The translations under genes and the position numbers were made by a program. A stretch of DNA of 37,808 nucleotides from Actinomycetota bacterium. Its GTDB lineage: Bacteria > Actinomycetota > Acidimicrobiia > Spongiisociales > UBA11373. Numbering within the stretch: position 1 is the stretch's first letter; the number at the start of each line of letters is the position of its first letter. This document shows, piece after piece, positions 10,372-34,099 of the stretch. Location: the NCBI GenBank assembly GCA_016870535.1, contig VGBK01000009.1, positions 1 through 37,808 of the forward strand. Reading direction: 5' to 3'. The notes under the pieces are model-generated. The model saw nothing but the letters and a program-made list of their open reading frames with translations, made no database searches and was not told the origin of the DNA.

Positions 10372-10378
10372 GGCTGCG

Positions 10379-13732: not shown

Positions 13733-13746
13733 ACGAGGTGACCGAC

Positions 13747-18338: not shown

Positions 18339-18664
18339 AGCGAGTCGGAGCGATCCTGGGCCTGAAGCCCGAGGCCTACGAGGAGTACAGCCGGTACCAC
18401 CGGAAGATCTGGCCCGAGATCGAAGCGGCCATTCGCGAGGCCGGCATCACCAACTACTCCATCTATCACTTCCGGGGCACGATGTTCGCCTACTTCGAGT
18501 ACGCCGGCCCGGAGGGGGAATACAAAGAGAGGATGCAGCGCCTCGACTCCGCACCGCGCATGCAGGAGTGGTACGGGATCATGCGGCAGTTCCAGGTGCC
18601 CGTCGAGGGGCGGCAACCGGGGGAGTGGTGGGCCGCCATGGAGGAAGTCTTCCACCAGGACTGA
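18335..18664 (+). CDS. rhaM: L-rhamnose mutarotase family protein
   Basis: A 109-residue alpha/beta ferredoxin-like protein of the L-rhamnose mutarotase family (PF05336 type). His22 in YSRYHRKIWPE matches the catalytic His position of RhaM, and AGITNYSIYHF, MFAYFEYAG and a Trp-rich C-terminus (MQEWYG, EWWAAMEEVF) are family marks. It speeds alpha/beta interconversion of L-rhamnose or a close relative such as L-fucose, feeding the dehydrogenase. It is the last gene of the operon and ends 34 bp before the convergent activator gene and 28 bp before the right direct repeat. Confidence 0.9.
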   Translation: MKRVGAILGLKPEAYEEYSRYHRKIWPEIEAAIREAGITNYSIYHFRGTMFAYFEYAGPEGEYKERMQRLDSAPRMQEWYGIMRQFQVPVEGRQPGEWWAAMEEVFHQD

Positions 18665-18692
18665 CACCACCCGCGCCGCGACGCTCCGCCGG

Positions 18693-18809
18693 CGCGCCTC
18701 ACCCCTCCAGGGCGATGAGCGCCGCTCCGTAGGCTCCCGTCAGTTGCGGGTGCGGGGGCAGGATCACGGCCATCCCGGTCGCCTCTTCCATCATGGCCCG
18801 CACTCCGGG
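18693..18809 (-). repeat. Direct repeat DR1, right copy (117 bp)
   Basis: This copy corresponds to 854-970 with four mismatches. It covers the last 37 codons of the intact activator gene plus 6 bp beyond its stop. Together the two copies bracket a 17.7-kb interval running from the HIT gene to the mutarotase gene. Confidence 0.9.
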
Positions 18810-19472
18810 GTTCAGGGCCACGCCGCCCGAGAGGATGAGCGGCGGGCCGAGGCCCACGGTGCGGGCCATGGCCACGATGCGCCCCACCAGGGAGCGGTGC
18901 AAGCCGCGGATGATGGCGTCGAGGTCGGCCCCCCGGCCGATCAGGGAGATGATCTCTGATTCGGCGAAGACGGTGCAGGTGGAGGAGATGGGCTCCTCGG
19001 CGGTGGCGCCCAGGGCTCGGGGACCCAGATCCGCGACGGCGACGCCGAGGCGGCCGGCGGTGTGCTCCAGGAAGCGGCCGGTGCCGGCGGCGCACTTGTC
19101 GTTCATGGCGAAGTCGATGGGGCGGCCTTCCTCGCCGATGCGGATGGCCTTGGCGTCCTGGCCCCCGATGTCCACCAGGGTCCCGCCGTGCCCCAGTGCC
19201 CCGAAGACCCCCCGGGCATGGCAGGTGATCTCTGTGACGCGCCGCGCCGCCCCGCGCACCAACTGCCGTCCGTAGCCGGTGGCCACCACGGGAGGCGGCT
19301 CGACCGGTCCCAGATCGCCCACCAGGGCGGTGATGAGGCCGGCGGCCTGCTCCTCGAGGCGGGGATGGGTCGCCTCCAGCCGGGAAGCCAGCAGGGCTCC
19401 GGTCTCGTCGACGGCTACCACCTTGCAGGTGGTGGACCCGGCATCGACCCCGATGGCGGCGGCGCCGGTCAT
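18699..19472 (-). CDS. hgdC: 2-hydroxyacyl-CoA dehydratase activator (HgdC/BadF family ATPase)
   Basis: A 257-residue ASKHA-fold ATPase that drives one electron into a 2-hydroxyacyl-CoA dehydratase or benzoyl-CoA reductase-like enzyme. GVDAGSTTCK (8-17) is the phosphate loop, LVDIGGQDAKAI the second ATP motif, and Cys127 (NDKCAAGTG) and Cys166 (SSTCTVFAE) are the ligands of the dimer-bridging [4Fe-4S] cluster. These positions match those known for HgdC. ATG at 19472 overlaps the stop of the adjacent dehydratase subunit gene. The cluster is very oxygen-sensitive, implying anoxic use. A duplicate of its 3' end stands at 860-970. Confidence 0.92.
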   Translation of the reverse strand: MTGAAAIGVDAGSTTCKVVAVDETGALLASRLEATHPRLEEQAAGLITALVGDLGPVEPPPVVATGYGRQLVRGAARRVTEITCHARGVFGALGHGGTLVDIGGQDAKAIRIGEEGRPIDFAMNDKCAAGTGRFLEHTAGRLGVAVADLGPRALGATAEEPISSTCTVFAESEIISLIGRGADLDAIIRGLHRSLVGRIVAMARTVGLGPPLILSGGVALNPGVRAMMEEATGMAVILPPHPQLTGAYGAALIALEG

Positions 19473-20788
19473 CCGCCCAGCATCTCCACGAAGGCCTCCA
19501 GGCGGCTTGCGGCCTGCTCCTCGGAGAAGGAGCGCGGGTCGTTGTGATCGGCTTCGAGCAGCAGCGCCGGCACCCCGGTCTGGTTGACCAGGCCGTCGCG
19601 CTGGTCGATCTGGCCCAGTGAGTAGGGCTTGCAGGAGCGGTCGGAGTGCAGGATGACCCCGTCGGCGGAGAAGTCGTCCACCATGCCGCGCATCGCTTCG
19701 AGCTTCTGCCCGGCGGAGCGGTTGAGGATGGGATGCAGGTAGACCCGGGCCATCGACTCGAAGGGATGCAACGGGTCCATCAGCGGGGCCAGTTCCCCCC
19801 AGGCATGGGCGTAGGTGGAGGCCACCACGTTCACCCCGCGGGCGGCCAGCCACTGCGACAGGGGCCCGATGCGGTACCAGATGGGCAGGTTGTCCCAGAG
19901 CACGCGGTAGCGCTCTTCGCGGACGGCGCCGATGCCGGCCGCTATGCGCCGGTCGATCTCGGCGAGCAGCCCCCGGTAGTAGTCGGTGGTCGCTTGCTCC
20001 CCGCGCAGGTCCACGATGGGCCCGAGGTGGGTGAAGGCGTCGAACGCGGTGAGGGGGGAAGGGCGGTGCCGGGCTCGCTCCAGGATCTCCAGCCAGGTCT
20101 CGCTGGCCTCCTTGGCGCGGGCGACGATCGCGGTGAACTCCTGTTCCGAAAAGGGCCGGCCGGCCACCCGCTCCGCGACGGGGACGATCTCCTCCAGTTG
20201 ACGGCGGACGTAGGCCACCTCGTGGGGCTGCGGCTGCGGCCCGTACTGGAAGGGGGTGTCCACCAGCACCAGGGGGCAGCCGAAGTGGTCGGCCAGCACG
20301 CGGTACCAGTAGAGCACCGTCTGGCAGATGTTGGTGCAGCAGAGGAGTAGGTCGGGGCGGGGCAGGCGGCCCACCGGGGTCTCCCCGGAGAGCAGGGCCC
20401 CGAGGTCGGTGCGGGCGTAGGAGCAGATGTCGCGCGAGTAGCCGGCGTCCTCGGCCACCTCGCACAGGTGCTGCGCCCGGCGCCGGGCGCCGCACAGGGC
20501 GGCGTGGTTCTCCGGGTAGATGACGAAGAACCCGAGGGTGAGCAGGATCTCGGTGGAGGCCCCACTGGTCACCCAGGCCACGGGACGCACCCCGGAGGCG
20601 TGGCGGCCCTCCAGATAGTGGCCCGACATCATCTCCTTCATGCGGGCGATGCTGCGCAGCGGCGGCTCCAGAGGACGGTCGGGACCGGATCGGAGGGAAT
20701 CCAGGCGCCGCTCGTCCCGGCGGCGCTGCAGGCGGAGCAGCGGGCGTCCCGCCAGCCGGTAGCCCAGCAGATGCCCCAGGCGGCTCAT
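19469..20788 (-). CDS. 2-hydroxyacyl-CoA dehydratase subunit (HgdA/HgdB family), larger
   Basis: A 439-residue subunit of the 2-hydroxyacyl-CoA dehydratase / benzoyl-CoA reductase family. Cys-rich motifs typical of the [4Fe-4S] ligands are SRDICSYAR (Cys122), LLLCCTNICQT (Cys150, 151, 155) and LHSDRSCKPYS; the C-terminus shows the family pattern PALLLEADHNDPR and RLEAFVEML. It would eliminate water syn from a 2-hydroxyacyl-CoA by a ketyl-radical route. The first 45 residues are Arg-rich and not obviously conserved, so a later start is possible. It overlaps both neighbours by ATGA. Confidence 0.9.
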   Translation of the reverse strand: MSRLGHLLGYRLAGRPLLRLQRRRDERRLDSLRSGPDRPLEPPLRSIARMKEMMSGHYLEGRHASGVRPVAWVTSGASTEILLTLGFFVIYPENHAALCGARRRAQHLCEVAEDAGYSRDICSYARTDLGALLSGETPVGRLPRPDLLLCCTNICQTVLYWYRVLADHFGCPLVLVDTPFQYGPQPQPHEVAYVRRQLEEIVPVAERVAGRPFSEQEFTAIVARAKEASETWLEILERARHRPSPLTAFDAFTHLGPIVDLRGEQATTDYYRGLLAEIDRRIAAGIGAVREERYRVLWDNLPIWYRIGPLSQWLAARGVNVVASTYAHAWGELAPLMDPLHPFESMARVYLHPILNRSAGQKLEAMRGMVDDFSADGVILHSDRSCKPYSLGQIDQRDGLVNQTGVPALLLEADHNDPRSFSEEQAASRLEAFVEMLGG

Positions 20789-21864
20789 CGGAGCGTCTCC
20801 ACGAAGGCCTCCAGACGGGTGAGGGTCTGCTGGGTGAGGCTGCCGGTCAGTTCGACCTCGACGTGTAGCACGGGAAGCCCGGCGGCAGAGAGGTGCCGGC
20901 GGAGCAGCGGCACGTCGAACAACTCCGGCTCGCAGAACTTCGGGTCGTAGATCACCAGGCCGCGGGCGCCGGCGGCTCCCATCTGCTCCCGCAGGTGACG
21001 GGCGCGGGCGGCGATGGGATCCCCCCGCGTCGGATCGGGGGGACCGCCCAGCAGCCGAGTGGCGAGGCGCGTGTGCGGGTCGCCCCCGTCCTGGAGCGGG
21101 TAGACGCGCCGCCGGCCGCTCGCCAGGTCGTCGGCCACCACCCGGGCTCCCATGGCGGACAGGTGGTCGAAGAGGTCGAGGGGCTCGGCCACGATTCCCG
21201 ACAGCATCACGGGCACGCCACCGGGAGGATCCCCGGCGGCGAGGGACCCGGCAAGAGCCACGAAGTCCTCGGCGGGAAGGAACTCCCGGGAGCGCACGAC
21301 GGTGTAGAACTCGCGGTCGGTGACCGCCAGGCCTTCCCGGCGGGCGTAGAGGTCGGCCAACGCCCGGTCGGCGGCGTCCTCCGCGGCGAAGGCCGCCTCC
21401 CAGTCGGCCGGGGCGGGGACCCTTCCCGAGATGGCCGCCAGCGCCTCGCCCAGTCGGCGCAGCTCGGCCACCAGGAACTCGTGATCGACCGGCCGGCGGC
21501 TGCGGGGCAGGTAGAGGGTGAGGACCGGCGGGGTGGGCCGCACGAAGTCGCCGAGCACCGACCCCATGCCCTGGAGGGCGTCGCAGGTGTGGGGGACGAG
21601 GATGGCGTCCACGCCGTCGAGGCCTCCCCGGAGCAGAAACGAGGTGGCCCGCACCACGATGTCGCAGGTGTACGCCTGGAAGTGCCGGCCGCCTTCATCC
21701 CGAGGGACGCCCGGGGGCCCCCAGACCTCGACGGGATGGAACCCGTGGGCCCGCAGCAGGGCGCGCGGGTAGTGGTAGGGGAGCACGGCCGCCACGCGGC
21801 GACCGGCGGCTTGCACCCGCGCCACCACCTCGGCGCGGGTGGGGCACCTGAGGCTGTTGGTCAT
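20785..21864 (-). CDS. 2-hydroxyacyl-CoA dehydratase subunit (HgdA/HgdB family), smaller
   Basis: A 359-residue partner of the preceding subunit and of the same family. Cys positions lie in AYTCDIVVR, VPHTCDALQGMG and IYDPKFCEPELFD, matching the usual three-ligand set. The C-terminal LHVEVELTGSLTQQ and RLEAFVETL repeat the family ending. ATG at 21864 is chosen because GGGGAG is about 10 nt upstream; ATG 21873 is in frame but only 2 nt from that site. The acyl-CoA substrate (lactyl-, 2-hydroxyglutaryl-, phenyllactyl- or other) cannot be read from sequence. Confidence 0.87.
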   Translation of the reverse strand: MTNSLRCPTRAEVVARVQAAGRRVAAVLPYHYPRALLRAHGFHPVEVWGPPGVPRDEGGRHFQAYTCDIVVRATSFLLRGGLDGVDAILVPHTCDALQGMGSVLGDFVRPTPPVLTLYLPRSRRPVDHEFLVAELRRLGEALAAISGRVPAPADWEAAFAAEDAADRALADLYARREGLAVTDREFYTVVRSREFLPAEDFVALAGSLAAGDPPGGVPVMLSGIVAEPLDLFDHLSAMGARVVADDLASGRRRVYPLQDGGDPHTRLATRLLGGPPDPTRGDPIAARARHLREQMGAAGARGLVIYDPKFCEPELFDVPLLRRHLSAAGLPVLHVEVELTGSLTQQTLTRLEAFVETLR

Positions 21865-21882
21865 CCGGCCCATTCTCCCCGA

Positions 21883-22935
21883 TCAGAGCGTCTCGCGCGG
21901 GCGGGTCGCCTCGCCGGCGAGCGGCGATTCCCGCGTCGGCGCGGCCGGCGCGCCGCACCGTCGTTCCTCGTCCGCCCAGAGCTCGAGCACGCGACGCGAC
22001 GGGTGGCGGGGCTCCCAGCCCAGGACTTGACGCGCCCGCCGGGTATCGGCGAGCCAGGGATGGCGGATGAGCTCCATGCCGCCCGACGGCGATCGATGCT
22101 GCAGGCGCAGGGCCCACGAGGCGTCGGCCAGCGAGCGCAGCAGCCGGGAGGGCAGGGGCACGGGATGGCTTCCGCAGAGCCGGATGGCTTCTCTCCAGCG
22201 GATCGTCCCGGAGCCGGCCAGGTTGAAGATCCCCGCCGCCCGCTGCTCCACGACGGCGAGCCCGGCGCTGCCGAGATCGTCGGCCGCCAGGAACTGCATC
22301 TCGGGATCGGCGCCCGCGACCACGGGGAGACGCTTCATGGCGAGCAGTTCGGCGACGAAGTTGACCGCCCCCGGCCCGAGCACGATGCAGGGCCGCAGCA
22401 CGGTCACCTTGAGCGCGGGGTGCGTTGCCGCGTACGTGGCGAGGTACCGCTCCACCTCGGCCTTGTGTTCCCCGTAGCGGAATCCGGGCGTCGGGCGAAG
22501 CGGATCGGTCTCCGGGTGCGGTGCGGCCTCGCCGGGGCGGGCCCCGTACACGGTGGTGCTGCTCGGGTAGACGAATTGTGCGGCTCCGGCCGCGCCGGCA
22601 TGTTCGAGCAGGGCGACGGCGGCCTCTACGTTCAGGGCGCGGTCGACCCCGGGATCTCGCGAAGGCTTGAGGTGGAAGGCGAAGTGCAGGACGGTGTCGA
22701 TGCCGTCGAGGAGGCCGGGGTCGGGGCGGCGGAGGTCGGCGCGCTCGAAGCGGAAGCGCGGATCCGTGGGCGGATGGGCCATGGGGCGCAGGTCGACCCC
22801 GACCACCGACTGCACCTCGGGCAAGCCCGCGAGGAGGCGGTGGACCATCATCCCGCCGAGGAACCCGGCCGCTCCGGTCACCAGCAAGCGGCACGGGGGC
22901 GTGGCCCCAGGGCGAGCAGCAGCGCAGGGTCCCAC
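21883..22935 (-). CDS. NAD-dependent epimerase/dehydratase (extended SDR)
   Basis: An extended short-chain dehydrogenase with Rossmann motif LLVTGAAGFLGG, VVGVDLRP at the second strand, ADLRRPD, YPSSTTVYG for the active Ser/Thr region and Tyr-x3-Lys in RYGEHKAEVE. Members act on nucleotide sugars, flavonoids or steroids. The start is uncertain. GTG 22935 is given because AGGGTGG is about 5 nt upstream and only 16 residues precede the fold. GTG 22944 and TTG 22887 are alternatives; the frame stays open to 23157 in Pro/Arg-rich sequence. It is 18-19 bp upstream of the dehydratase genes on the same strand, so it probably leads that operon. Confidence 0.85.
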   Translation of the reverse strand: MGPCAAARPGATPPCRLLVTGAAGFLGGMMVHRLLAGLPEVQSVVGVDLRPMAHPPTDPRFRFERADLRRPDPGLLDGIDTVLHFAFHLKPSRDPGVDRALNVEAAVALLEHAGAAGAAQFVYPSSTTVYGARPGEAAPHPETDPLRPTPGFRYGEHKAEVERYLATYAATHPALKVTVLRPCIVLGPGAVNFVAELLAMKRLPVVAGADPEMQFLAADDLGSAGLAVVEQRAAGIFNLAGSGTIRWREAIRLCGSHPVPLPSRLLRSLADASWALRLQHRSPSGGMELIRHPWLADTRRARQVLGWEPRHPSRRVLELWADEERRCGAPAAPTRESPLAGEATRPRETL

Positions 22936-23119
22936 TGGGGCCACCCTAGCCAAGGAGCCGACTGGGCCCGTCCCGGGGTGCCGGCAGGCGGGGCGATTCC
23001 CAGGGCGCGGCACGGGGCAGCCCACGCGCTCGGCGTTTAGGCGCGGGCCCGGCTCGCTAGCCTCTGCCAAGGCTGTGAGTACGGCCTCGTCCACCACCTC
23101 TGGGAAGGGAGAGCGCCCG

Positions 23120-23524
23120 ATGAAGATCGCCGCCGTGTCGGAAGACGGCCGCACCATCGCCCAGCACTTCGGCCGGGCTCCCTACTACGTAGTGGTCGCG
23201 GTGGAGGGGGGTGAGGTCGTCCTGCGGGAGACGCGAGCCAAGGTGGGCCATCGCGACTTCGCCGGAGGCATCGATCCCGGCCCGGTGGCCAAGCATCGCG
23301 CCATGGCCGACGCCATCGGCGACTGCGCTGCTCTGCTCGCCGGCGGCATGGGCAGCGGGGCCTTCACCTCTCTGCAGGCGGCCGGCATCGAGCCGGTGCT
23401 CACCGACGAAGCAGACATCGAGACGGCGGCCCTGCGGTATGCCGCGGGCGACCTGCCCAACCTGGCCGACCGCCTCCACCACGGCCGGGGCGAGCACCAC
23501 TACGGGCATGGCCACAGCGGCTGA
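23120..23524 (+). CDS. NifX/NifB-type iron-molybdenum cofactor domain protein
   Basis: A 134-residue single-domain protein of the dinitrogenase iron-molybdenum cofactor family (NifX/NafY/VnfX, NifB C-terminal type). It shows MKIAAVSEDGRTIAQHFGRA at the start and ALLAGGMGSGAFTSLQAAGI in the core. The tail is His-rich (LHHGRGEHHYGHGHSG), suggesting metal binding. No nitrogenase genes are visible, so it likely carries or scavenges a metal or Fe-S species for another enzyme. GGGAAGGGAGAG precedes the ATG. It overlaps the TrmO-like gene by 17 bp. Confidence 0.87.
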   Translation: MKIAAVSEDGRTIAQHFGRAPYYVVVAVEGGEVVLRETRAKVGHRDFAGGIDPGPVAKHRAMADAIGDCAALLAGGMGSGAFTSLQAAGIEPVLTDEADIETAALRYAAGDLPNLADRLHHGRGEHHYGHGHSG

Positions 23525-24035
23525 CGACGCGGCCGGTTCGGGACGAGCGTCCCCGCCTTCCTTCTGCGTTGTCGGGGTAGTGCACAGCCCCTTCCTTTCC
23601 CCCGCCGGGGCTCCTATCCAGCCTTACTGCGCCGGGCCCGATGCCGTCGGCAGGGTGGAGGTCTTCGAGGAGTACGCCGCCGGGCTGGAGGACCTCGACG
23701 GCTTCGAGCGCATCTGGGTGCTGTCGTGGTTCCATCGGGCGGGGGCGGCGCGTCTCAGAGTGATCCCCTACCTGGATAGCGAGGAGCGAGGCGTGTTCGC
23801 CACCCGGGCGCCGGCCCGGCCCAATCCGATCGGCATCTCGGCGGTTCGCCTGCTGCGGCGCGAGGGGCGGTGGCTCCACGTAGCCGAACTCGACCTCGTC
23901 GACGGCACGCCCGTCCTCGACCTGAAGCCCTATGCCACCGCTTTCGACTCATATCCCGGCAGCCGCCAGGGCTGGCTCGAGAATCGGGGAGCCGGCGGTG
24001 GCCCGGCCGACGATCGGTTCACCGCCGGTTCATAG
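23508..24035 (+). CDS. trmO: TrmO/TsaA-like SAM-dependent methyltransferase domain protein
   Basis: A 175-residue protein of the TrmO (TsaA-like, YaeB/VirR) family, whose best known member N6-methylates t6A37 in tRNA-Thr. The signature FATRAPARPNPIGIS and the substrate loop LVDGTPVLDLKPY are present, with VVGVVHSPF at the fold start. The first 20 residues and the Gly/Asp-rich tail are not conserved. The ATG at 23508 lies inside the NifX-like gene, which implies coupling. TsaA-like proteins paired with NifX-like proteins are something I recall from anaerobes; there the role may concern metal cofactors. Confidence 0.85.
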   Translation: MATAADDAAGSGRASPPSFCVVGVVHSPFLSPAGAPIQPYCAGPDAVGRVEVFEEYAAGLEDLDGFERIWVLSWFHRAGAARLRVIPYLDSEERGVFATRAPARPNPIGISAVRLLRREGRWLHVAELDLVDGTPVLDLKPYATAFDSYPGSRQGWLENRGAGGGPADDRFTAGS

Positions 24036-24041
24036 AGGTCC

Positions 24042-24069
24042 GGCGGCGCGGTTTCCTTCCGGCGCCGCC
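24042..24069 (+). terminator. GC hairpin after the TrmO-like gene
   Basis: GGCGGCGC (24042-24049) is the exact complement of GCGCCGCC (24062-24069) with a 12-nt loop rich in T and C. It begins 6 bp past the TrmO stop. There is no U tract. It probably separates this gene from the flavodoxin gene, whose own ribosome site GGAGGT follows. Confidence 0.5.
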
Positions 24070-24109
24070 ATCGGCCAGAATCGCGGGCAGCAACTCCGGA
24101 GGTAGCAGC

Positions 24110-24610
24110 ATGCGGGTGCTGGTAGTGGCGGCGAGCAAGCACGGGTCCACGGCTGAGATTGCCACGGCGCTGGGCGAGGCGCTCGCCCGGCGGGGCCTCA
24201 GCGCCACCGTTGCCGACGCCGCCGACGCGGGCGACATCGAGGAATACGAAGCCGTGGTGCTCGGCAGTGCCGTGTACGCCGGGCGCTGGCAGAAGGCGGC
24301 GCGCGAACTGGCCGAGCGGCACGGGGACTTTCTGGTGAAGCACCCGCTGTGGCTGTTCTCCAGCGGGCCCGTGGGGGATCCGCTGAAGCCGGAGGAGGAC
24401 CCGGTGGACGTGGCCCAGATAATGGCCATCGTCGGGGCTCGGGAGCATCGCGTCTTCGCCGGCCGGGTCGACAAGAGCCGGCTCAACCTGGCCGAGAAGG
24501 CGATCGTGAAGGCGCTGAAGGTGCCCGAAGGCGACTGGCGCGACTTCGGGGCGGTCGCCGCCTGGGGGAACGAGATCGCCGATGCCTTGCTGGGAGGCGG
24601 TGCCGGGTAG
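24110..24610 (+). CDS. Flavodoxin-domain protein (HemG-like)
   Basis: A 166-residue flavodoxin-fold protein of the kind annotated as menaquinone-dependent protoporphyrinogen oxidase (HemG, COG4635). The FMN phosphate loop is AASKHGSTAEIA (7-18), with AVVLGSAVYAGRWQ and LFSSGPVGDP for the isoalloxazine-side loops and DWRDFGAVAAWG near the end. It would move electrons with FMN. HemG activity is possible, but the long insertion typical of HemG is not clearly present, so a general redox role is equally likely. The ATG has CGGAGGT 5-6 nt upstream. Confidence 0.85.
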   Translation: MRVLVVAASKHGSTAEIATALGEALARRGLSATVADAADAGDIEEYEAVVLGSAVYAGRWQKAARELAERHGDFLVKHPLWLFSSGPVGDPLKPEEDPVDVAQIMAIVGAREHRVFAGRVDKSRLNLAEKAIVKALKVPEGDWRDFGAVAAWGNEIADALLGGGAG

Positions 24611-24632
24611 CCGCCGGCGAGGACTCCCCGTG

Positions 24633-24749
24633 TCAGCGGCCGCGGCGCCGCTGTAGCGCTCGCCCGGCGCCGGTGCCCGCGGCCAGGACGCCCAACCCGG
24701 CGGTGAGGACCAGGGCGAGCATGGTCAGGATGCTGGTCAAGGTTGCCAC
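24633..24749 (-). CDS. Possible 38-residue single-span membrane peptide
   Basis: A small minus-strand frame encodes one hydrophobic helix (ILTMLALVLTAGLGVLAAG) followed by a basic tail (GRALQRRRGR). A GTG at 24749 or a TTG at 24740 could start it; AGAGGAG stands 1 nt before the GTG and 10 nt before the TTG. It fills an otherwise empty 200-bp gap. A helix plus an Arg-rich end is a believable membrane microprotein, but chance cannot be excluded at this length. Confidence 0.35.
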   Translation of the reverse strand: MATLTSILTMLALVLTAGLGVLAAGTGAGRALQRRRGR

Positions 24750-24810
24750 GCTCCTCTGACGCCCGAGTGCGGGCCGGCGGTTCCCGGCGTGCCCGCCTGG
24801 CTCCGGGGGT

Positions 24811-25575
24811 TCAGTCCGCCGTCACCAGGCCGTAGCCGAGACCGAAGACGGCCCGAATGATCCGAGCCCCGGCCACAGACCCTATCCGGAGGCTTCGCGA
24901 GGCTTCCGCCGGGGGCAGCAGCGCCGTAGAGCGCCGCCCCAGCGGCGTGCCGTCCAGGTCGGCCTGCCCCTCCCGCACGGAGAGAAGGCCCCCCTCGCCC
25001 GGTCCTATCGCCCAGTTCAGGTCCGCCCCGGGCTCCAGGGCGGTGTCGGTGAAGCGGCGGACGTCGCAGTGGACCGGGAGGGGGGAGAGAGGGCCCACCA
25101 TCTCCCGGGTGACCACGCCCGATCCTTCCGAGTAGACGGGCATGTCCTCCCGGCGCAGGACCTCGAAGCTGGTCTGCTCGGGTATGGGACTGGTGGTGGC
25201 CACCAGGATGTAGATCTCGGCATCCACCTCGCCGTGGTTCCACTCCTGGTGGATCATGCCGCGCCGGCCTTCGGTGAAGCGGGCCAGGGCGCCCTCCGGC
25301 ACGTGGCCGGCGATGCGGTTGAGGGCGTCGTCGTGGTCGAAGGTGCCCCGCTCCAGGTAGAAGAGGCGCTCGTGATGACGGTGGGGGTGATGGCCGATCC
25401 CCAGGCCGGCCTCGATGATCGAGTCGTGCACCGTGACCAGGGGGCCGCAGGCTCGCACCCGGGTGAAGGGGCCGATGGACTCGATGGCCACGAGGCCCGG
25501 TGTGCCGAATTGGGCCTCGCCGAGCACGGCGTGGTCCTCGGGGGCCAGGACTATGGAGGCGGGGCCGGCGGTCAT
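24811..25575 (-). CDS. Pirin-like double-cupin protein
   Basis: A 254-residue bicupin of the pirin (YhhW-type) family. The first cupin holds GHHPHRHHERLFYLERG (metal site His63, His65 and neighbours) and GMIHQEWN; the second is degenerate, as in many pirins (SVREGQADLDGTPLG). Members include quercetin dioxygenases and redox-sensing proteins; no function is certain. ATG at 25575 has no strong ribosome site. Its first 41 codons and upstream region are duplicated at 28072-28233 as a fragment, with an almost identical 75-bp core. Confidence 0.88.
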   Translation of the reverse strand: MTAGPASIVLAPEDHAVLGEAQFGTPGLVAIESIGPFTRVRACGPLVTVHDSIIEAGLGIGHHPHRHHERLFYLERGTFDHDDALNRIAGHVPEGALARFTEGRRGMIHQEWNHGEVDAEIYILVATTSPIPEQTSFEVLRREDMPVYSEGSGVVTREMVGPLSPLPVHCDVRRFTDTALEPGADLNWAIGPGEGGLLSVREGQADLDGTPLGRRSTALLPPAEASRSLRIGSVAGARIIRAVFGLGYGLVTAD

Positions 25576-25615
25576 CGCGGGGCCGCACCGTAGGCCGCCC
25601 CGCCGCCTACCCAAG
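25462..25615 (-). repeat. Direct repeat DR2, left copy (cupin 5' end and upstream)
   Basis: This matches 28081-28233. The core 25471-25545 differs from 28090-28164 at a single base (25498), while the first nine codons and the region before the ATG have diverged clearly. Fainter similarity continues to about 25685 (compare 28301), so the divergent promoter region was copied with the coding start. Confidence 0.85.
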
Positions 25616-25757
25616 CCGTGCCGCCTCAGTGGCGGGTGTCGACGTCGCGGAGAGGGAGCGGCAGCGGCCGGGAGCATACGCTTCGGGAGGCCCCCGGGCC
25701 GGCCCCCTCCGGGCGCACCCCTCGGCTAGGTTCGCGGGCAGGCATACAGTCCGGGCG

Positions 25758-28004
25758 ATGAAACGCCTGCTCGCCCCTCTGGCTGTCGCTCTGCTCGCTG
25801 CCGCCCTGACGGTGCCGACCGCCTCGCCGGCCCTGGCCGCACCCAGGACCTTCACGTGGAGCGGCGGAGGCCTCACCAACGGATGGGGCGATGCCGACAA
25901 CTGGGCAGGAAAGGAGGCGCCTCCCACCAGCGGGGACACCATCGTTGACCTTTCCGCGGCGGGCGCCACCACGATCACGGGCGCGAGCGGCCAGATCAGC
26001 GAGCTTCGGGCTACCGGCGGCACGATCGTCGAGGGCAGCGGGCTGACCATCACCCGGCGCATCGAGGCGGTCTGTGTGCGCCTCAGCTTCGACAACCTGA
26101 TCGTCACCGGGGGCGGCGATATCGCCGGCGGCGCCATCTACGGCTCCATGACGAACCAGGGGAACATCACCCAGCGGCCGGTGCGGACCCAGGAATGCCT
26201 CAACAGCGATGGCGGCATGAAGACGCCCTCGACCCTGATCTCGAGCGCCGCCGTGCTGACGAACGCGGGCACCTGGCGCGCCAACGGGGCGTGGCTGCTC
26301 GGCAGCAATTGCTGCGGCACTCCGACGTCGAGCCGGGTCGTGAACGAGCCCACCGGCAGGTTCGTCGGTCTGGAGCCGGGCGGTTTCGCCATCAGCAACC
26401 TCGAGTTCCAGAACGCCGGGCGCCTCGAAGGCACGGTGACTCTGGACAACAGCCACACGGTGCTCGAGGGTGGTACCCAGGTCTCGTCGCGCCGCGGTGT
26501 GGCGCCGGGGGCGCGAGTCACCTTGCGGGGTGGGGAGACCACGGTCGAACAGACGTTCACGATCGGGCGCGGCGGGGTTCTGCGGCTCGCGGACGAGAAC
26601 GCACGACTCGTCGGCCCCGGGAAGATCGAGACACCCGCTCTGCCGTCGGACCGGCCTCCGGGGACTCTGCGCTTCGAGGGGGGGCAGGTGCTCGGGTTCA
26701 TCGAAACCGGCAACCGCCTCCGTGTCGAGAAAGCCGGGGCCCGGAAGTTGTTCGTGCGGACGCTCGGCGGTGTGCCGGGGCTCCTTCTGGTCAAGGGCCC
26801 GGCCGCGCTCTCGGGTGCCGGGCCGCTCTCGATCGACGCTCTTGCCGCGGCCAGCTTCCAGGGCGCGGTGACCGTGACGGGCGCGGTGACGGTGGCGGGC
26901 ACTTCCTGCTGTCGCGAGACCGAGATTCCGCTGTTCGATGTGGGGGGCACCATGACTCTCGCCGGCGGCGCATCGCTCGCCGTGGAGTCGGCCCGACTCG
27001 GCCTTGAGGGAGCCATCGCCGGCGCGGGCCGGCTCACGCTCAAGGGCGGGCGCCACTACGTCGGCAACGGGGCGCGGCTGGCGACGCAGACCGTCCTCGA
27101 CGCCAACGCCTTCGTGGCCCTTCCCAACGGCCGCGTGGTCGTCGACGCACCGGTCGAGCAGCGCTTCGCCGACCTGCGCGCTCCCTCGGGTCTGACCAGG
27201 CAGACTCTCCTCGAGGGTAGCGGGTCGTGGACCTGGCGGCGCGGCGACATCCAGGGAGCCGTGGCCCTCGCCATTCCTCTGGTGCTCCCGGCGACCGGGA
27301 CGGAACGGGCGCTTGAAGGGCGCCTGGAACTGCGCGCCGCATCCAGGATCGGTGGCGGGCTCACGCTCTACTTGAGGTCGCGGCTCACGGTCGAGGGCGA
27401 ACTCACGCTCGTCGACGCGGCCATCGATGCCCCCGGCAGTCCCGCCGCCAGGGTCCGGGTCGCCCCGGGCGGCACCCTCCTGGTCAGGGGTTCGCTCCCT
27501 TCGGGGATCCACGGCGCCACGGTGAGCATCGACGGGACGCTCGATCTGCGCTCGGCGGGACTCGACCTCGGTGACGGCACCCTGCACAGCGAGCAGGGAG
27601 ACGTGCGACTCAGGGGGCAGTCGCTGACCGCCCGGAAGGTCACCATCCAGTCGCAGGCGTCCCTCGCCGGCCCGGGCTCGGTCTTCGGCGACGTCGTCGC
27701 GGGAGGCACCGTCAGCATGGCGGCACGCGGTGCACTCGAAGTGCACGGCGACTGGCGCAGCCTGCCCAGGCTGCGCCTCGGACTCACCGCCGCCGGGGAT
27801 CTCCGTGACTCCCTCCGGGTCCAGGGTCACGTAGATCTGGGCGGCCGCCTGACGGTCCTTGGCTTCACTCGGCCGTCCGGGACTCCCACAGTCCTGGTTT
27901 CCGCGTTGACCCGGGGCGGTGTCTTCGATGCTGTCACCGGCATGCCCCCACAGACGGCGGTCGACTACACCAACCGGTCGGTGGTGCTCAAGCGCCTGGC
28001 CTGA
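25758..28004 (+). CDS. Large secreted beta-rich protein, function unknown
   Basis: A 748-residue exported protein. A Sec signal peptide (LLAPLAVALLAAALTVPTA then ALA-A, cleavage near 31) precedes a WSGGG..GWGDADNWAG start like those of autotransporter-passenger and dockerin-linked beta-helix proteins. The body is a long series of short Gly/Val/Leu/Thr strands such as GRLEGTVTLD and GTLLVRGSLPS, and ends in GDLRDSLRVQGHVDLGGRLTV. Two CC pairs (SNCCGT, TSCCRE) and other Cys could form disulfides. No membrane anchor, LPXTG or outer-membrane barrel is seen, so it is released or held non-covalently. It likely folds as a right-handed beta helix. The ATG at 25758 lacks a clear ribosome site. Confidence 0.85.
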   Translation: MKRLLAPLAVALLAAALTVPTASPALAAPRTFTWSGGGLTNGWGDADNWAGKEAPPTSGDTIVDLSAAGATTITGASGQISELRATGGTIVEGSGLTITRRIEAVCVRLSFDNLIVTGGGDIAGGAIYGSMTNQGNITQRPVRTQECLNSDGGMKTPSTLISSAAVLTNAGTWRANGAWLLGSNCCGTPTSSRVVNEPTGRFVGLEPGGFAISNLEFQNAGRLEGTVTLDNSHTVLEGGTQVSSRRGVAPGARVTLRGGETTVEQTFTIGRGGVLRLADENARLVGPGKIETPALPSDRPPGTLRFEGGQVLGFIETGNRLRVEKAGARKLFVRTLGGVPGLLLVKGPAALSGAGPLSIDALAAASFQGAVTVTGAVTVAGTSCCRETEIPLFDVGGTMTLAGGASLAVESARLGLEGAIAGAGRLTLKGGRHYVGNGARLATQTVLDANAFVALPNGRVVVDAPVEQRFADLRAPSGLTRQTLLEGSGSWTWRRGDIQGAVALAIPLVLPATGTERALEGRLELRAASRIGGGLTLYLRSRLTVEGELTLVDAAIDAPGSPAARVRVAPGGTLLVRGSLPSGIHGATVSIDGTLDLRSAGLDLGDGTLHSEQGDVRLRGQSLTARKVTIQSQASLAGPGSVFGDVVAGGTVSMAARGALEVHGDWRSLPRLRLGLTAAGDLRDSLRVQGHVDLGGRLTVLGFTRPSGTPTVLVSALTRGGVFDAVTGMPPQTAVDYTNRSVVLKRLA

Positions 28005-28071
28005 CCTTCCTCTCGAGAGCCTGCGGCTTGGGGTCCGCAATGCCGCGGGCGCACCGCTCGTCTGGCTCGCT

Positions 28072-28194
28072 CCGGACCCTGGTGCAGGGGCCGATGGACT
28101 CGATGGCCACGAGGCCAGGTGTGCCGAATTGGGCCTCGCCGAGCACGGCGTGGTCCTCGGGGGCGAGCACGATCGGCGGCGGATGGACGGTCAT
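28072..28194 (-). pseudogene. 5' fragment of the pirin-like cupin gene
   Basis: From an ATG at 28194 the frame reads 41 codons homologous to the intact cupin, including IVLAPEDHAVLGEAQFGTPG and ending at TRVR, with one change (Phe37 to Cys) within residues 10-41. After TRVR the frame stays open but is unrelated. Both cupin metal sites are missing, so it is non-functional. It has the same orientation as the intact gene, 2.6 kb away on the other side of the secreted-protein gene. Confidence 0.85.
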
Positions 28195-28233
28195 GGTCCG
28201 ATCAACCGTAGGCCGGGCGGCGTCCTATCCAAG
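28081..28233 (-). repeat. Direct repeat DR2, right copy
   Basis: Partner of 25462-25615. The two copies flank the gene for the large secreted protein in direct orientation, so recombination between the near-identical 75-bp cores would delete that gene. Confidence 0.85.
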
Positions 28234-28353
28234 AGCCCCTTGAGAGAAACAAGTGTTAACGCCGGGGAAAGGGGGCGGTAACGCGCCGGGGCGTACGTTC
28301 GCCACAGCCCTCGGGGTGTACCCGGGGGGCCACTGTGAGAGTGGAGGCACACG

Positions 28354-30063
28354 TTGAGAGCGAACGCCCTGCGGCGACTGCTCGTCCTGGCAATGATCCT
28401 CGCCTTCGTCGCCGCCGCATGCGGTGACGACGAAGGGGGCGGGGTCACCACGACGACCGCCGCTACCACCACCACCGGTGGGTCCGGCAGCACGACCACC
28501 ACGTCGTCCGGCCAGACCACCACCACCACGGAACCTGCCGAACCCTTCGTCATCGAACCCGGGCTCAATGGGCTCCGGGTCGTCGACGACCTCACCTTCA
28601 CGGTGACGATGACGCAGGCCGATCCCGAGTTCCCGCTGAAACTGGCCTACGCGGGCTACTTCCCCTTGCCCAAGGTCGCCTTCGACGACCCGGCGGCCTA
28701 CGAGGAGAGCCCCGTCGGCAACGGCCCCTTCATGATGGACGGGCCCTGGCAGCACGACGTGGTCATCCCCATGAAGCGCTTCGAGGCCTACGCCGGACCC
28801 GACCCGGCGCAGATCGAGCGTCTGGAGTGGACGATCATCGACAACCTGAACACGGCCTACAACGAGGTCCGGGCGGGCAACCTGGACATCCTGGGGCCGG
28901 CCCTGCCCACCGACCAGATCGCCACGGCTGCCGCCGAGTTCGGCGACCGCTACGGGCTGTCGTCGTCGACCTCGTTCACCTACATGGGGTTCCCTCTATA
29001 CCTGCCCGCGTACCAGGACCCGGATGTGCGCCGGGCCTTGTCGATGGCCATCGACCGGGACCTGATCGTGCAGCAGATCTACCAGAACACCCGCGTGGCG
29101 GCGTTCTCGACCCTGCCGCCCATCTTCCAGGGGGCGCGCGAGCACGTCTGCGACAACTGGGACTTCAACCCCGACGAGGCCAAGGCCCTGTGGGATTCCA
29201 TCGACCATCCCGACTCGCTGGTCGTCTGGTTCAACACCGGCGGGGGCCACGAGGAGTGGGTGGAGGCTGTGGCCAACATGTGGCGCAGCACCCTGGGCAT
29301 CCAGGACATCACCTTCCAGAGCCTGGAGTTCTCGGAGTACCTGCCCCTGCTCGACGCCCAGGGCGGCACCGGGCCGTTCCGCCTCGGCTGGGGGCAGGAC
29401 TACCCGTCGCCGCTGAACTTCCTGGAGCCCCTCTACGCCTCGTACAACTTCCCGCCGGTGGGCTCGAACACCACCTTCTATGCGAATGCGGCCTTCGACG
29501 CGGCCATCGCCGAAGGCAAGGCGGCCGTGGCGGAGAGCGGCGACCTGGCCGACGGAGTCCCCGCCTACCAGCGGGCCGAGGACGTTCTCTGCGCCGATGT
29601 GCCCATCGCCCCGGTGTGGTTCCGCACCAACCAGTACGTCTACACCGAGGGCGTCGGGAACGTCCACTACGACGCCTACAGCGACCTCGGGGTGACCAAG
29701 GTCACCAGCGACGACGGCCTGGTGTCGGTCCAACTCTCCGAGCCGGAGCACCTGTTCCCGACCAACTCGAACGAGTCCAACGGGATCCAGGCGCTGCGGG
29801 CGTTGTTCACCGGCCTGGTGCAGTACGACGCCGAGACCAACGAGATGTTCTTCGCCAACGCCGAGTCCATCACCTCCGAGGACGGCGGCCTCAGCTGGAC
29901 CATCACCCTGAAGCCGGGATGGACCTTCCACAACGGTGAACCGGTGACCGCCTGGTCCTATGTGAATGCCTGGAACTACGGCGCCAACAGCGCCAACGCC
30001 CAGCAGAACAACTCGTTCTACGCCGACATCTCCGGCTACGCCGAGTTGAACCCTGCCGGCTGA
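28354..30063 (+). CDS. Family-5 solute-binding lipoprotein, circularly permuted
   Basis: A 569-residue peptide/nickel-type binding lipoprotein (SBP_bac_5 family). The signal peptide ends at lipobox VAAAC with Cys23; a Thr-rich linker runs to about 62. The body then starts with GLRVVDDLTFTVTMT and SPVGNGPFMMDG, normally about 150 residues into these proteins, and proceeds through VRRALSMAIDRDLI and GWGQDYPSP to the usual C-terminus near residue 450. Residues 457-569 then supply what should be the N-terminus: SVQLSEPEHLFPTNSNES, ALFTGLVQYD, GLSWTITLKPGWTFHNGEPV and AWNYGANSANAQ. Nothing seems lost or doubled. TTG start with GGAGG 6 nt upstream. Four transporter genes follow. Confidence 0.88.
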   Translation: MRANALRRLLVLAMILAFVAAACGDDEGGGVTTTTAATTTTGGSGSTTTTSSGQTTTTTEPAEPFVIEPGLNGLRVVDDLTFTVTMTQADPEFPLKLAYAGYFPLPKVAFDDPAAYEESPVGNGPFMMDGPWQHDVVIPMKRFEAYAGPDPAQIERLEWTIIDNLNTAYNEVRAGNLDILGPALPTDQIATAAAEFGDRYGLSSSTSFTYMGFPLYLPAYQDPDVRRALSMAIDRDLIVQQIYQNTRVAAFSTLPPIFQGAREHVCDNWDFNPDEAKALWDSIDHPDSLVVWFNTGGGHEEWVEAVANMWRSTLGIQDITFQSLEFSEYLPLLDAQGGTGPFRLGWGQDYPSPLNFLEPLYASYNFPPVGSNTTFYANAAFDAAIAEGKAAVAESGDLADGVPAYQRAEDVLCADVPIAPVWFRTNQYVYTEGVGNVHYDAYSDLGVTKVTSDDGLVSVQLSEPEHLFPTNSNESNGIQALRALFTGLVQYDAETNEMFFANAESITSEDGGLSWTITLKPGWTFHNGEPVTAWSYVNAWNYGANSANAQQNNSFYADISGYAELNPAG

Positions 30064-30079
30064 CCCATCCACCGGAGGA

Positions 30080-30107
30080 GTGGGGCGGCCCCTCCCGGCC
30101 GCCCCAC
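30080..30107 (+). terminator. Perfect 11-bp hairpin after the binding-protein gene
   Basis: GTGGGGCGGCC (30080-30090) and GGCCGCCCCAC (30097-30107) pair exactly around CCTCCC, 16 bp past the stop. A run of C, not T, follows. In this place it more likely protects the lipoprotein mRNA or lowers read-through to the permease genes than fully ends transcription. A similar structure follows the other binding-protein gene at 4515-4594. Confidence 0.55.
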
Positions 30108-30186
30108 CCCCCCAACCCGCAACGCGGCTGCAACCACCAGAAGGTATCGATCGTGTCCACCCAGCGAGGGAAACGGTAGGAAGGCC

Positions 30187-31110
30187 ATGGGTCGCTACCT
30201 GATACGCCGCCTGCTGCAGTTCATCCCCGTCTTCTTCGGGGCCACCTTCCTGATCTTCGTCATGGTGTGGGCCATCCCCGGTGACCCCATCAGGGCCCTG
30301 GCCGGCGACCGCTTTCTCCCCGAACAGGTGCGCCAGGAGCTGCGGGACCGCTACCACCTCGACGACCCGCTGCCGGTGCAGTACGGCAAGTACATGGGCG
30401 GGGTCTTCCAGGGGGACTTCGGCGACGACTTCCGGGGCCGGCCGGTCACCGACCTGCTGGCACAGCGGCTCCCCATCACCGTCCGCCTGGCCCTGCTGGC
30501 CTTCGGCTTCGAAGTGGTGCTGGGCATCGTCGCCGGCATCCTCGCCGGAGTGCGCCGGGGGGGCTTCATGGACAACCTCGTCCTGGTGTCCACCCTGGTG
30601 GTGATCGCCATTCCCATATTCGTGCTGGGGTTCCTGGCCCAGCTGGTGATGGGGGTCAAGTTCGGCTGGTTCCCCGTGTCGGGGGTGCAGCGCGGCCTCT
30701 ACAGCTACCTGCTCCCCGCCATGGTGCTGGGCTCGGTGTCGCTGGCCTACATCGCCCGGCTCACCCGCACCAGCCTGATCGAGAACCTGCGCGCCGACTA
30801 CGTGCGCACCGCCACCGCCAAGGGCCTGTCGCGCCGGCGGGTGGTGGGCATTCACACCTTCCGCAACTCGATGATCCCGGTGGTCACCTTCCTGGCCATC
30901 GACCTGGGTTCCCTGATGGGAGGGGCCATCATCACCGAGACCATCTTCAACATCCCCGGCCTGGGCCGGGCCGTCTTCGAGGGGGTGCAGCGCCAGGAGG
31001 GCACCGTGGTGGTCGGCATCGTCACCTTCCTGGTCGTGGTCTACATGGTGGCCAACCTGCTCGTGGACGTCCTCTACGCCGTGCTGGACCCGAGGATCCG
31101 CTATGAGTGA
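30187..31110 (+). CDS. Peptide/nickel ABC transporter permease, DppB-type
   Basis: A 307-residue inner-membrane permease with about six spans. It begins MGRYLIRRLLQFIPVFFGA, has the family PGDPIRALAGDR loop after the first span, LRADYVRTATAKGLSRRRVV ahead of the ATPase-coupling region, and GGAIITETIFNIPGLGR near the end. The start ATG has AGGAAGG 3-4 nt upstream. The last eight bases overlap the next permease gene. The substrate (peptide, nickel chelate or oligosaccharide) is set by the binding protein and is unknown. Confidence 0.94.
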   Translation: MGRYLIRRLLQFIPVFFGATFLIFVMVWAIPGDPIRALAGDRFLPEQVRQELRDRYHLDDPLPVQYGKYMGGVFQGDFGDDFRGRPVTDLLAQRLPITVRLALLAFGFEVVLGIVAGILAGVRRGGFMDNLVLVSTLVVIAIPIFVLGFLAQLVMGVKFGWFPVSGVQRGLYSYLLPAMVLGSVSLAYIARLTRTSLIENLRADYVRTATAKGLSRRRVVGIHTFRNSMIPVVTFLAIDLGSLMGGAIITETIFNIPGLGRAVFEGVQRQEGTVVVGIVTFLVVVYMVANLLVDVLYAVLDPRIRYE

Positions 31111-32044
31111 CCGCGACCGCGAACGCCCGTCCCCCGGTTCGCCGGCTCACGCGGGCCCCACCTTCGAGGAACTCGAGGCCGAGCCGATCATCCGCCGCGA
31201 GGGCAGCCTCTACGCCGACGCCTGGCGCCAGTTGCGGCGGCGGCCCATGTTCATCATCTCGGGGATCCTCATCGTGATCCTGGCCCTGATGGCCATCTGG
31301 CCGGGCCTGTTCACCCGGGCCGATCCCCGGGCCTGCAGCCTGGCCGACTCCTTGCTGCGACCCAGCGGCGAGCACTGGTTCGGGACCGACGTGCAGGGAT
31401 GCGACTACTACGCCCGCACCATCTGGGGGGCCCGGGTCTCAATCACCATCGGGGTGCTGGTCACCGCCTGCTCCACCCTGATCGCAATGCTGCTGGGCTC
31501 GATCGCCGGATACTACGGAGGCTGGGTGGACGCGGTGATCGCCCGCCTCACCGACATCTGGTTCGCCATCCCCACCATCCTCGGGGGCATCGTGATCCTG
31601 CGGTCGATCTTCTCCACCCGCGGCCTCCTGCAGGTCAGCCTGGTGCTCATCGTGCTGGGCTGGCCCACCATGCTGCGCCTGGTGCGCTCGGCGGTGATGG
31701 CCACCAAGGAGATGGACTACGTCGATGCCGCCCGGGCGCTGGGGGTGCGCCCCTTCCGCATCATCCGGCGCCACATCCTGCCCAACGCCATCGCCCCCGT
31801 GATCGTCTACGCCACCATCACCGTGGGGGTGATCATCTCCGCCGAGGCGGCGCTCTCCTTCCTGGGGGTGGGTCTGCAACTGCCCGCCATCTCCTGGGGC
31901 TTGATGATCAGCGTGGCCCAGAACCGCATCCTCACCGCCCCCCACCTGCTGCTCTTCCCGGGAGCCCTCCTCTCGGTGACCGTGTTCTCCTTCATCCTGA
32001 TGGGCGACGCCCTGCGGGACGCCCTCGACCCGAGGTTGCGCTGA
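31103..32044 (+). CDS. Peptide/nickel ABC transporter permease, DppC-type
   Basis: A 313-residue partner permease. A charged cytoplasmic N-terminus with a WRQLRRRPMFIISG entry to the first span is followed by HWFGTDVQGCDYYARTIWGA, the marker segment of DppC/OppC proteins. The coupling loop YVDAARALGVRPFRIIRRHI and the terminal LRDALDPRLR complete it. An extra Cys pair (ACSLADSLL, QGCDYY) lies on the outer loop and might form a disulfide. It overlaps dppB-type by 8 bp and the ATPase gene by the ATGA motif. Confidence 0.94.
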   Translation: MSDRDRERPSPGSPAHAGPTFEELEAEPIIRREGSLYADAWRQLRRRPMFIISGILIVILALMAIWPGLFTRADPRACSLADSLLRPSGEHWFGTDVQGCDYYARTIWGARVSITIGVLVTACSTLIAMLLGSIAGYYGGWVDAVIARLTDIWFAIPTILGGIVILRSIFSTRGLLQVSLVLIVLGWPTMLRLVRSAVMATKEMDYVDAARALGVRPFRIIRRHILPNAIAPVIVYATITVGVIISAEAALSFLGVGLQLPAISWGLMISVAQNRILTAPHLLLFPGALLSVTVFSFILMGDALRDALDPRLR

Positions 32045-33087
32045 TGGCCACCACCCTGAGCCGAGATGCCGTCGCCGGCCGGCCGGTAGATCCGGCGGCC
32101 CCTCTGCTGGCGGTCGAAGACCTGCGCGTCGAGTTCCGCATCGACGCCGGCACGGTGCGGGCGGTGAACGGCCTCTCCTACACCCTGGGGCGGGGGGAGA
32201 CCGTGGCCATCCTGGGCGAATCGGGCAGCGGCAAGAGCGTCGGCGCCCAGGCGGTGATGGGCATCATCGACAGCCCGCCGGGCTTCGTCACCGGGGGTTC
32301 GGTGCGCTTCCGCGGGGTCGAACTGCTCGACCTGCCCGAGGCGGAGCGGCGCCGGGTGCGGGGCAACCGGATGGCCATGATCTTCCAGGACGCCCTCACC
32401 GCGCTGAACCCGGTCTTCCCGGTGGGCTGGCAGATCGCCGAGATGTTCCGCATCCACCGCGGCCTGCCCCGCAAGGCGGCCGGGGAGAAGGCCATCGAGT
32501 TGATGGAGCGGGTGAAGATCCCCTCGGCCCGCGTGCGGGCCGGCTCCTACCCTCACGAGTTCTCCGGCGGCATGCGCCAGCGGGTGATGATCGCCATGGC
32601 GCTCTCTCTGGACCCCGAGATCCTGATCGCCGACGAGCCCACCACCGCGCTCGACGTCACCGTGCAGGCCCAGATCATGAGCCTGCTCGCCGAGTTGCAG
32701 CAGCAGACCGGCATGGGGCTCATCCTCATCACCCACGATCTGGGGGTGGTGGCCGAGGTGGCCGATCAGGTGGTGGTCATGTACGCCGGGCGCGAGGTCG
32801 AGAAAGGGCCCAGCCTGCCGGTCTACCACCGGCCGGCGCACCCCTACACCCTGGGGCTCATGGACTCCCTGCCCCGCCGCGATGTCCACACCGAGCGGCT
32901 GCGCCCCATCAAGGGCTCGCCGCCCGACCTGCTGGCCATCCCGCCGGGCTGTGCCTTCCGGCCCCGCTGCCCCTACGGGCGCGAGATCTGCGCCCGGGAG
33001 GAGCCGCCTCTGGCTGCGGTGACCTCCGACCGCATCTCCGCTTGCCACTTCTGGGAGGAGGTGTCCCGTGAGCGCGCCGGCGCCTGA
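32044..33087 (+). CDS. Peptide/nickel ABC transporter ATPase, DppD-type
   Basis: A 347-residue ABC ATPase. Walker A GESGSGKS is at 58-65, signature [14 protein letters not shown], Walker [13 protein letters not shown] and switch His in LITHDLGVV. The C-terminal oligopeptide-transporter domain holds four Cys ([18 protein letters not shown] and SACHFW), the set that binds a [4Fe-4S] cluster in some Dpp/Opp ATPases. It pairs with the next ATPase to power the permeases. The ATG overlaps the dppC-type TGA; the end overlaps the next gene by 20 bp. Confidence 0.94.
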
Positions 33088-34099
33088 GCCCGTCCACCAC
33101 GGCGAGGTGGTGCTCCGGGTGGAGCACCTGGTGAAGCACTTCCCCATTACCCGGGGCATCGTTCTGAAGCGCCAGATCGGCACGGTGAAGGCGGTGGACG
33201 ACGTCAGCTTCGAACTGCATCGGGGCGAGACCCTGGGCCTGGTGGGGGAGTCGGGCTGCGGGAAGACGACCACCGCCCGCACCATCCTCCGGCTGGAGAA
33301 ACCGACCGCCGGCCACGCCTGGTATCGGGGCCGGGACATCTTCACCCTGTCGGGGGAGGAGATGCGCGCGCTGCGCCGCGAGATCCAGGTGATCTTCCAG
33401 GACCCCTACGCCTCCCTCAACCCCCGCATGACCGTGGGCGACCTCATCGCCGAGGGCTGGCGGGTGCATCGGGGGGTGCTGCCCAAGAGCGCCCGGCGGG
33501 GCCGCATCCACGAGTTGCTGGAGCTGGTGGGCCTGAACCCGGATCACATCAACCGCTACCCCCACCAGTTCTCCGGGGGGCAGCGTCAGCGCATCGGGGT
33601 GGCCCGGGCCCTGGCCCTGGAGCCCAGCATCGTCATCTGCGATGAGCCGGTGTCGGCCCTGGACGTATCGGTGCAGGCGCAGGTGGTGAACCTGCTCGAG
33701 GACTTGCAGGACGAACTGGGCCTGTCGTACCTGTTCATCGCTCACGACCTGTCGGTGGTGCGCCACATCTGCGACCGCATCGCGGTGATGTACCTGGGCA
33801 AGATCGTGGAGACCGGGGACGAGTTCCAGGTCTACGACGACACCGCCCATCCTTACACCACGGCCCTCCTGTCGGCGGTGCCCATCCCGGACCCGGCGGC
33901 CCGGAACCTGGGCAATCGCATCTTGCTGGAGGGCGATGTGCCCAGCCCGGCCGACCCGCCCAGCGGCTGCCGCTTCCGTACCCGGTGCTGGAAGGCCCAG
34001 GAGGTCTGCGCCGCGGCGGAGCCGGAACTGATCGACCGGGGCCAGGGCCACCCGGTGGCCTGCCGCTTCGCCCAGATGGAGTTCGACCCGGCGCGGTGA
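33068..34099 (+). CDS. Peptide/nickel ABC transporter ATPase, DppF-type
   Basis: A 343-residue second ATPase of the importer. Walker A GESGCGKT is at 60-67, signature [14 protein letters not shown], Walker [13 protein letters not shown] and switch His in FIAHDLSVV. The N-terminal [17 protein letters not shown] is the DppF/OppF pattern, and the C-terminal Cys set ([20 protein letters not shown]) is present. GTG at 33068 is the start, inside the preceding gene, with GGGAGGAGG 6-7 nt upstream. It closes the transporter operon. Confidence 0.94.

Follow-up and report, generated by a model that had tools for sequence, protein, structure and literature searches.

Gene conversion between paralogues has been described for the PE/PPE genes of Mycobacterium tuberculosis, where the report presents a mosaic gene, one tract of which is nearly identical to another copy within that genome, the rest being diverged (PMC12046097). 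We describe here an arrangement of similar form in a 37,808 bp stretch of an Actinomycetota genome (contig VGBK01000009.1 of assembly GCA_016870535.1, positions 1 to 37,808; hereafter, the window), in which two direct repeats, each carrying the 5′ end of a pirin-like cupin gene and the divergent region upstream of it, flank a gene for a large secreted protein. The PE/PPE paralogues are intact and sister strains show them before conversion (PMC12046097), whereas at our locus one partner is a truncated relic and the tract measures 51-79 bp. The best explanation of the locus, and one that we consider fairly probable, is that the repeats are old and diverged and that a short ectopic copying event recently made 51-79 bp of them alike.

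Two other descriptions bear on the locus. Among small variable segments of bacterial genomes, 10-18% are flanked by direct repeats according to one study, which proposes deletion between the repeats and also discusses homology-assisted illegitimate joining (PMC2884548). There, as here, a segment is found in one genome, is absent from another and has direct repeats on its flanks, but most of those repeats are <30 bp, compared with ~250 bp of gene end and promoter in the window (PMC2884548). Homology-facilitated illegitimate recombination would leave the stump of a native gene beside imported DNA (PMC3240628, PMC2884548); at our locus, for which it is a candidate origin, neither a donor nor an unaltered ancestor has been seen.

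Direct repeats around a secreted-protein gene

The repeats, at 25454-25575 (left copy, L) and 28073-28194 (right copy, R), are 87% identical with a spacing of 2619 bp, and the 2,565,459-base draft assembly matches the repeat in these two places only. Their core (25471-25545 in L, 28090-28164 in R) is identical at 74 of 75 bases, the sole difference being at 25498. The near-identical stretch is slightly longer (25467-25545 in L, 28086-28164 in R), with one mismatch in 79 bp, which divides it into perfect matches of 31 bp (25467-25497) and 47 bp (25499-25545), the second of which is the longest exact run common to both copies. By comparison, 31 of the 89 aligned sites adjoining the core (25451-25470 and 25546-25615) differ (Fisher p = 1.1e-8 against 1/75), and at this flank rate the probability of finding one difference or fewer in 75 is ~5e-13. 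The initial annotation had described a core that is better conserved than its surroundings, which these counts bear out; they reject uniform divergence along the repeat, the alternative that it had raised. The duplication that it described is likewise real, direct and 2.6 kb apart, but the end that it placed at 25615/28233 is too short, as homology extends to ~25700/28316: the segment 25635-25700 aligns to 28252-28316 with a score of 25, compared with a shuffle mean of 12.4 (standard deviation 2.2), and this score was reached by none of 1000 shuffles and none of 2937 random window pieces. Each repeat (25451-25700 in L) thus holds ~250 bp, namely the first ~42 codons of the cupin gene and most of the divergent region that precedes an ATP-binding cassette (ABC) transporter operon.

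For comparison, we used G001, one same-genus genome, whose contig C57 is syntenic with the window over 18696-21876, 23105-24789, 24808-25615 (the cupin gene, 79% identical) and 28073-34095 (the operon, 89%). G001 lacks the secreted-protein gene, and its only cupin gene is complete and stands directly divergent to this transporter operon. Judged from this synteny, R, with its fragment at 28069-28233, is therefore the native copy, at the ancestral place beside the operon, and the intact cupin gene together with the secreted-protein gene is the displaced half. The "dead fragment" of the initial annotation is accordingly a truncated relic, as it had said, but a relic at the native site, with the intact gene as the displaced copy. 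The right join, at ~28068, shows no homology to G001, and the left join is masked by other rearrangements at 21876-23105 and 24789-24808.

The intact cupin gene of L (24811-25575, minus strand, with its start placed by alignment to G001) encodes 254 amino acids, matches Pfam Pirin with an E of 6e-7 and shares 76% amino acid identity with its single G001 orthologue. Its truncated counterpart in R (28069-28194, minus strand) has kept the first ~42 codons (E 8.9e-16, 86% over residues 1-42). The frame of the fragment is 68 codons long (27988-28194, minus strand) and continues into the 3′ end of the secreted-protein gene, the cupin similarity ending after about residue 42. The initial annotation had named a fragment belonging to a longer expressed gene as a case against its reading; we found this 68-codon frame and no longer known gene. 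When the list of open reading frames (ORFs) was filtered by codon-position GC, the secreted-protein ORF (25758-28004, plus strand, 748 amino acids) was the only plausible gene between the copies. To the right of R, the oligopeptide-type ABC transporter operon (28354-34099, plus strand) encodes a solute-binding protein, permeases and ATPases.

Conversion and constraint in the repeat core

We aligned L and R with the single copy of G001 (S) and sorted the informative sites by the pair that shares a base, in the order LR|S, LS|R, RS|L. The core gave 19/0/0, and the sites outside it gave 18/27/46 in total: 2/4/1 at 25451-25470, 7/5/4 in the first ten codons, 2/10/1 in the cupin-side promoter, 6/7/23 on the operon side and 1/1/17 at 25706-25757, where homology is not demonstrable for L. 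In addition, both copies encode QF, a derived state, at a position within the tract that is DF (aspartate-phenylalanine) in G001 and in six outgroup cupins. Because of the 19/0/0 count and the shared derived QF, we place the homogenisation of the core, on the evidence of this alignment, after the split from G001. Two homologous copies in one genome, a bounded rise in identity and an outgroup that is diverged within the tract are all features of gene conversion, and all are present here; for donor and direction, the comparison is with the single copy of one same-genus genome. Informative sites delimit a tract of 51 bp (25477-25527), which could extend to no more than 79 bp, and its ends are flanked by 8 bp (25469-25476) and 18 bp (25528-25545) that are identical in all three sequences.

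The initial annotation had offered two explanations for the core, recent gene conversion or crossover on the one hand and a function at the DNA level on the other. The contrast between 19/0/0 and 18/27/46 supports recent gene conversion, or an equivalent short templated copying. For a function at the DNA level, the core would be an operator, an internal promoter, an RNA or an attachment site, as might be expected of two near-identical copies next to a promoter. However, 20 of the 75 core bases (27%) in G001 are unlike those of both copies, and the flank sites at which it departs from L are 23 of 90 (p = 1.0); the core thus enjoys no special conservation. The part that is well conserved between L and G001 is instead the promoter half at 25576-25615 (87%), which is degenerate in R, and the core itself is ordinary coding sequence that can be aligned with distant cupins. 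The divergence of G001 rules out strong DNA-level constraint, and we regard a conserved DNA role of the core as having next to no chance of being correct.

Outside the core, the distance between L and R is nearly as large as that of either copy to G001. Non-core changes number 6 in L (cupin half) and 8 in R (operon half), 14 together, compared with 18 on the G001 branch plus any stem common to L and R; when the last, poorly aligned block is left out, the figures are 13 and 17. Since the functional branches carry 14 changes against 18, L and R would seem to have been separate for most of the time since the G001 split. A recent partial duplication, uniform at birth, with flanks decaying faster than the core, could account for the greater divergence of the non-functional half in each copy. 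In a dead fragment, however, identity at 74 of 75 bases would not be expected beside a fall to 60% over the 30 coding bases that follow, and in the operon half (25616-25705) L shares only 6 sites with R, compared with 7 with G001. We therefore consider a recent duplication very unlikely.

The halves of the divergent region have fared differently in the two copies. The cupin-side half is kept in L (25576-25615, 87% identical to G001) and degenerate in R (28195-28233, 64%). The operon-side half is kept in R (28234-28353; 74% identical in the first block and 94% next to the gene) and degenerate in L (25616-25700, 56%), where it now lies upstream of the secreted-protein gene. Each copy thus appears to retain the half whose gene survives. 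A promoter and terminator scan returned 0 and 0 sites. By eye, the bases that all three copies of the cupin promoter have in common conform to TTGGRT-N16-TACGGT on the minus strand, which resembles a -35/-10 pair and was not picked up by the consensus scan (25587-25614, 28205-28232 and, in G001, 9238-9265 of C57 (L010)).

Under the explanation that we favor, two ~250 bp direct repeats flanking a lineage-specific secreted-protein gene would be the remnant of an old rearrangement. The right copy would be native and attached to the operon, with its cupin gene cut after ~42 codons, and the left copy would carry the intact cupin gene and lead into the secreted-protein gene. The copies would have parted roughly at the split from G001, or earlier, after which each may have kept only the promoter half that still served a gene. 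In a far more recent event, a patch of 51-79 bp from one copy would have replaced its counterpart in the other. RecA-type gene conversion would be one way and a short template switch another, with the short conserved stretches at the tract ends as the points of exchange; nucleation of strand exchange, or a switch of template, at these ends fits the 8 bp and 18 bp that are identical in three sequences. Short-patch double illegitimate recombination would give a comparable product, a short templated patch with brief stretches of shared sequence at its borders. We infer the mechanism of copying, its direction, and selection as the cause of the reciprocal decay. The events themselves would be those of ordinary bacterial genome evolution, and the rearrangement is of an ordinary kind.

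Several points weigh against this explanation. If the flanks are a guide, the likeness of the copies before the event was probably ~60-70%, which is low for RecA-dependent conversion. The ages rest on few sites and one same-genus genome, and a strain in which the core is still unconverted was not seen. Finally, the sequence is a draft without reads, in which assembly error is possible: a metagenome assembler may have moved one core into the other copy or joined two strains. The draft has 322 contigs and 3% contamination, and the 47 bp exact run is within the reach of short k-mers. On the other side, the surroundings of the two copies are divergent and internally consistent, with synteny to G001 over 6 kb at the right copy, and a chimaera at shared k-mers would be expected to yield one core, not two. 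We judge an artefact of assembly or binning to be quite unlikely.

Candidate origins of the duplication

The homogenised core is later than the duplication itself, for which there are three candidate origins: an old duplication, an import with one homologous and one illegitimate join, and an ancestral duplication that collapsed in G001. In the case of import, the cupin and secreted-protein genes of a relative would have taken the place of the native left half, the native cupin gene surviving as a stump, and homogenisation of the core would have followed; this concerns the origin only. Import is consistent with the divergence of the L and R flanks, which is at least at the between-species level, and with the lack of the secreted-protein gene in G001. 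Divergence from G001 at fourfold sites also exceeds that of a reference set of seven genes, which includes badF and leaves out oppD (365/1368), in both the flavodoxin (46/97, p = 3e-5) and cupin (45/121, p = 0.019) genes. However, badF within the reference set reaches 53/148, so that gene-to-gene spread could explain the cupin value, and G+C content at third codon positions agrees between the genomes gene by gene; for these two reasons import is not established. No donor was found among genome contigs, 395 class and 396 phylum genomes, plasmids or phages. The argument that the left block is foreign because of its 79% identity to G001 is weakened by the similar fourfold-site divergence of badF. 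We view import as possible, though short of probable.

Alternatively, the duplication may have been present in the ancestor, and G001 may have collapsed the repeats by recombination, losing the secreted-protein gene. As in the product of a crossover, G001 resembles L as far as the equivalent of 25615 (87%, compared with 64% for R) and resembles R from there on (74-94%, compared with 45-56% for L), and outside the core L and R fail to pair with each other. The same pattern would arise, however, if each copy had kept only its useful half, and between its flavodoxin and cupin genes G001 carries 2.3 kb with no counterpart in the window genome. As an account of the origin alone, such a collapse is tentative and rather doubtful. 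The 2.3 kb in question (C57 (L010) 6157-8459) has only one 36 bp match in the window genome; its ORFs resemble, by eye, a low-temperature-requirement A protein and an NADP-F420-type oxidoreductase. The epimerase gene region of the window (21876-23105) has no match in C57, where 2.7 kb of other DNA stands instead.

The segment was also considered as a mobile element. A transposon with a target-site duplication was rejected, as the secreted-protein ORF has no Pfam match and the duplication is ~250 bp. No inverted repeats join the two segment ends among the inverted-repeat pairs listed. An integrative element in a gene end was rejected as well, since there was no integrase among the 33 ORF translations, part of those in the window, that were scanned with Pfam.

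The 748-amino-acid secreted protein, which by eye has a signal peptide followed by beta-rich repeats, matched nothing in Pfam or NCBIfam. Beyond its own genome, it had no relatives in 395 genomes of the class (E <= 1e-8) or 396 of the phylum (E <= 1e-6), no match in plasmids or phages and none confirmed in the genome_contigs set; one weak partial match (E 4e-4, 86 amino acids) turned up in 31 relatives. Judged by these searches, the gene is lineage-specific. Mobile cargo was tried as a reading and rejected, there being no plasmid, phage or confirmed contig match. The structure model of the protein, with a mean predicted local distance difference test score of 39, was too poor for use.

Distant cupins were found in 10 of the 396 genomes of the phylum that were searched (besides that of the window), and none lies beside this operon in the stretches examined. 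Of these stretches, five are shorter than 10 kb, and the only other match to an operon gene is a 30% ATPase ~3.6 kb from one cupin. Within its own class, the cupin subfamily occurs in 2 of 395 genomes (E <= 1e-15), both of this genus, and relatives with 57-59% amino acid identity are found in other classes of the phylum (L049-L058), a distribution that suggests lateral transfer of the cupin gene into this genus. The genome_contigs set gave no confirmed relative of the cupin.

A second repeat pair and the wider setting

The window holds a second pair of repeats, 851-970 and 18690-18809, identical at 115 of 120 bases, with one mismatch only over 879-970. They correspond to the 3′ end of a BcrAD_BadFG ATPase gene and flank 17.7 kb. 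With 22 LR|S sites, 2 LS|R and 2 RS|L, this pair too became alike after the split from G001. Synteny with G001 stops exactly at its right copy (C57 10603), and for 1-8000 of the window G001 yielded nothing beyond the repeat and some short partial matches. A sugar-catabolism cluster occupies 2466-18664, with an IclR regulator, an ABC sugar transporter, an FGGY kinase, aldolases, a protein of the L-rhamnose mutarotase family and others.

From the two pairs, the initial annotation had proposed a recurring mode of rearrangement in this genome, which was not supported by a wider sample. Dispersed direct-repeat pairs (at least 50 bp, at least 85% identical, >500 bp apart) were found in 0 of 19 other 20-kb stretches, compared with 2 in the window; the sample covers 380 kb of 2.57 Mb, pairs >20 kb apart or on different contigs are invisible to it, and the window had been chosen for its pairs. 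Other matches listed in the 19 stretches were tandem or near-tandem arrays, arrays at contig ends, and similarities of 73-77%. Six matches of at least 60 bp and at least 85% identity occur between different stretches, none of them involving the window. The genome of the window also has a dispersed family of ~130 bp with a hairpin-like center, 86-96% alike (L024:421-550, L028:17386-17539 and L030:18220-18349).

It is conceivable, if unlikely, that the repeats act as a recombining pair with repeated exchange of sequence, by a short conversion in the window genome and, in G001, by a crossover collapse in which the secreted-protein gene was lost. If so, this gene would serve the genus as an on/off accessory locus, beside a duplicated transporter-operon promoter region. 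Whatever the origin, the locus illustrates a divergent promoter region that was duplicated and whose halves would then have been lost in turn. It also offers a clean, datable, small case of what would be ectopic copying between strongly diverged repeats, in which a third sequence separates conversion from constraint.

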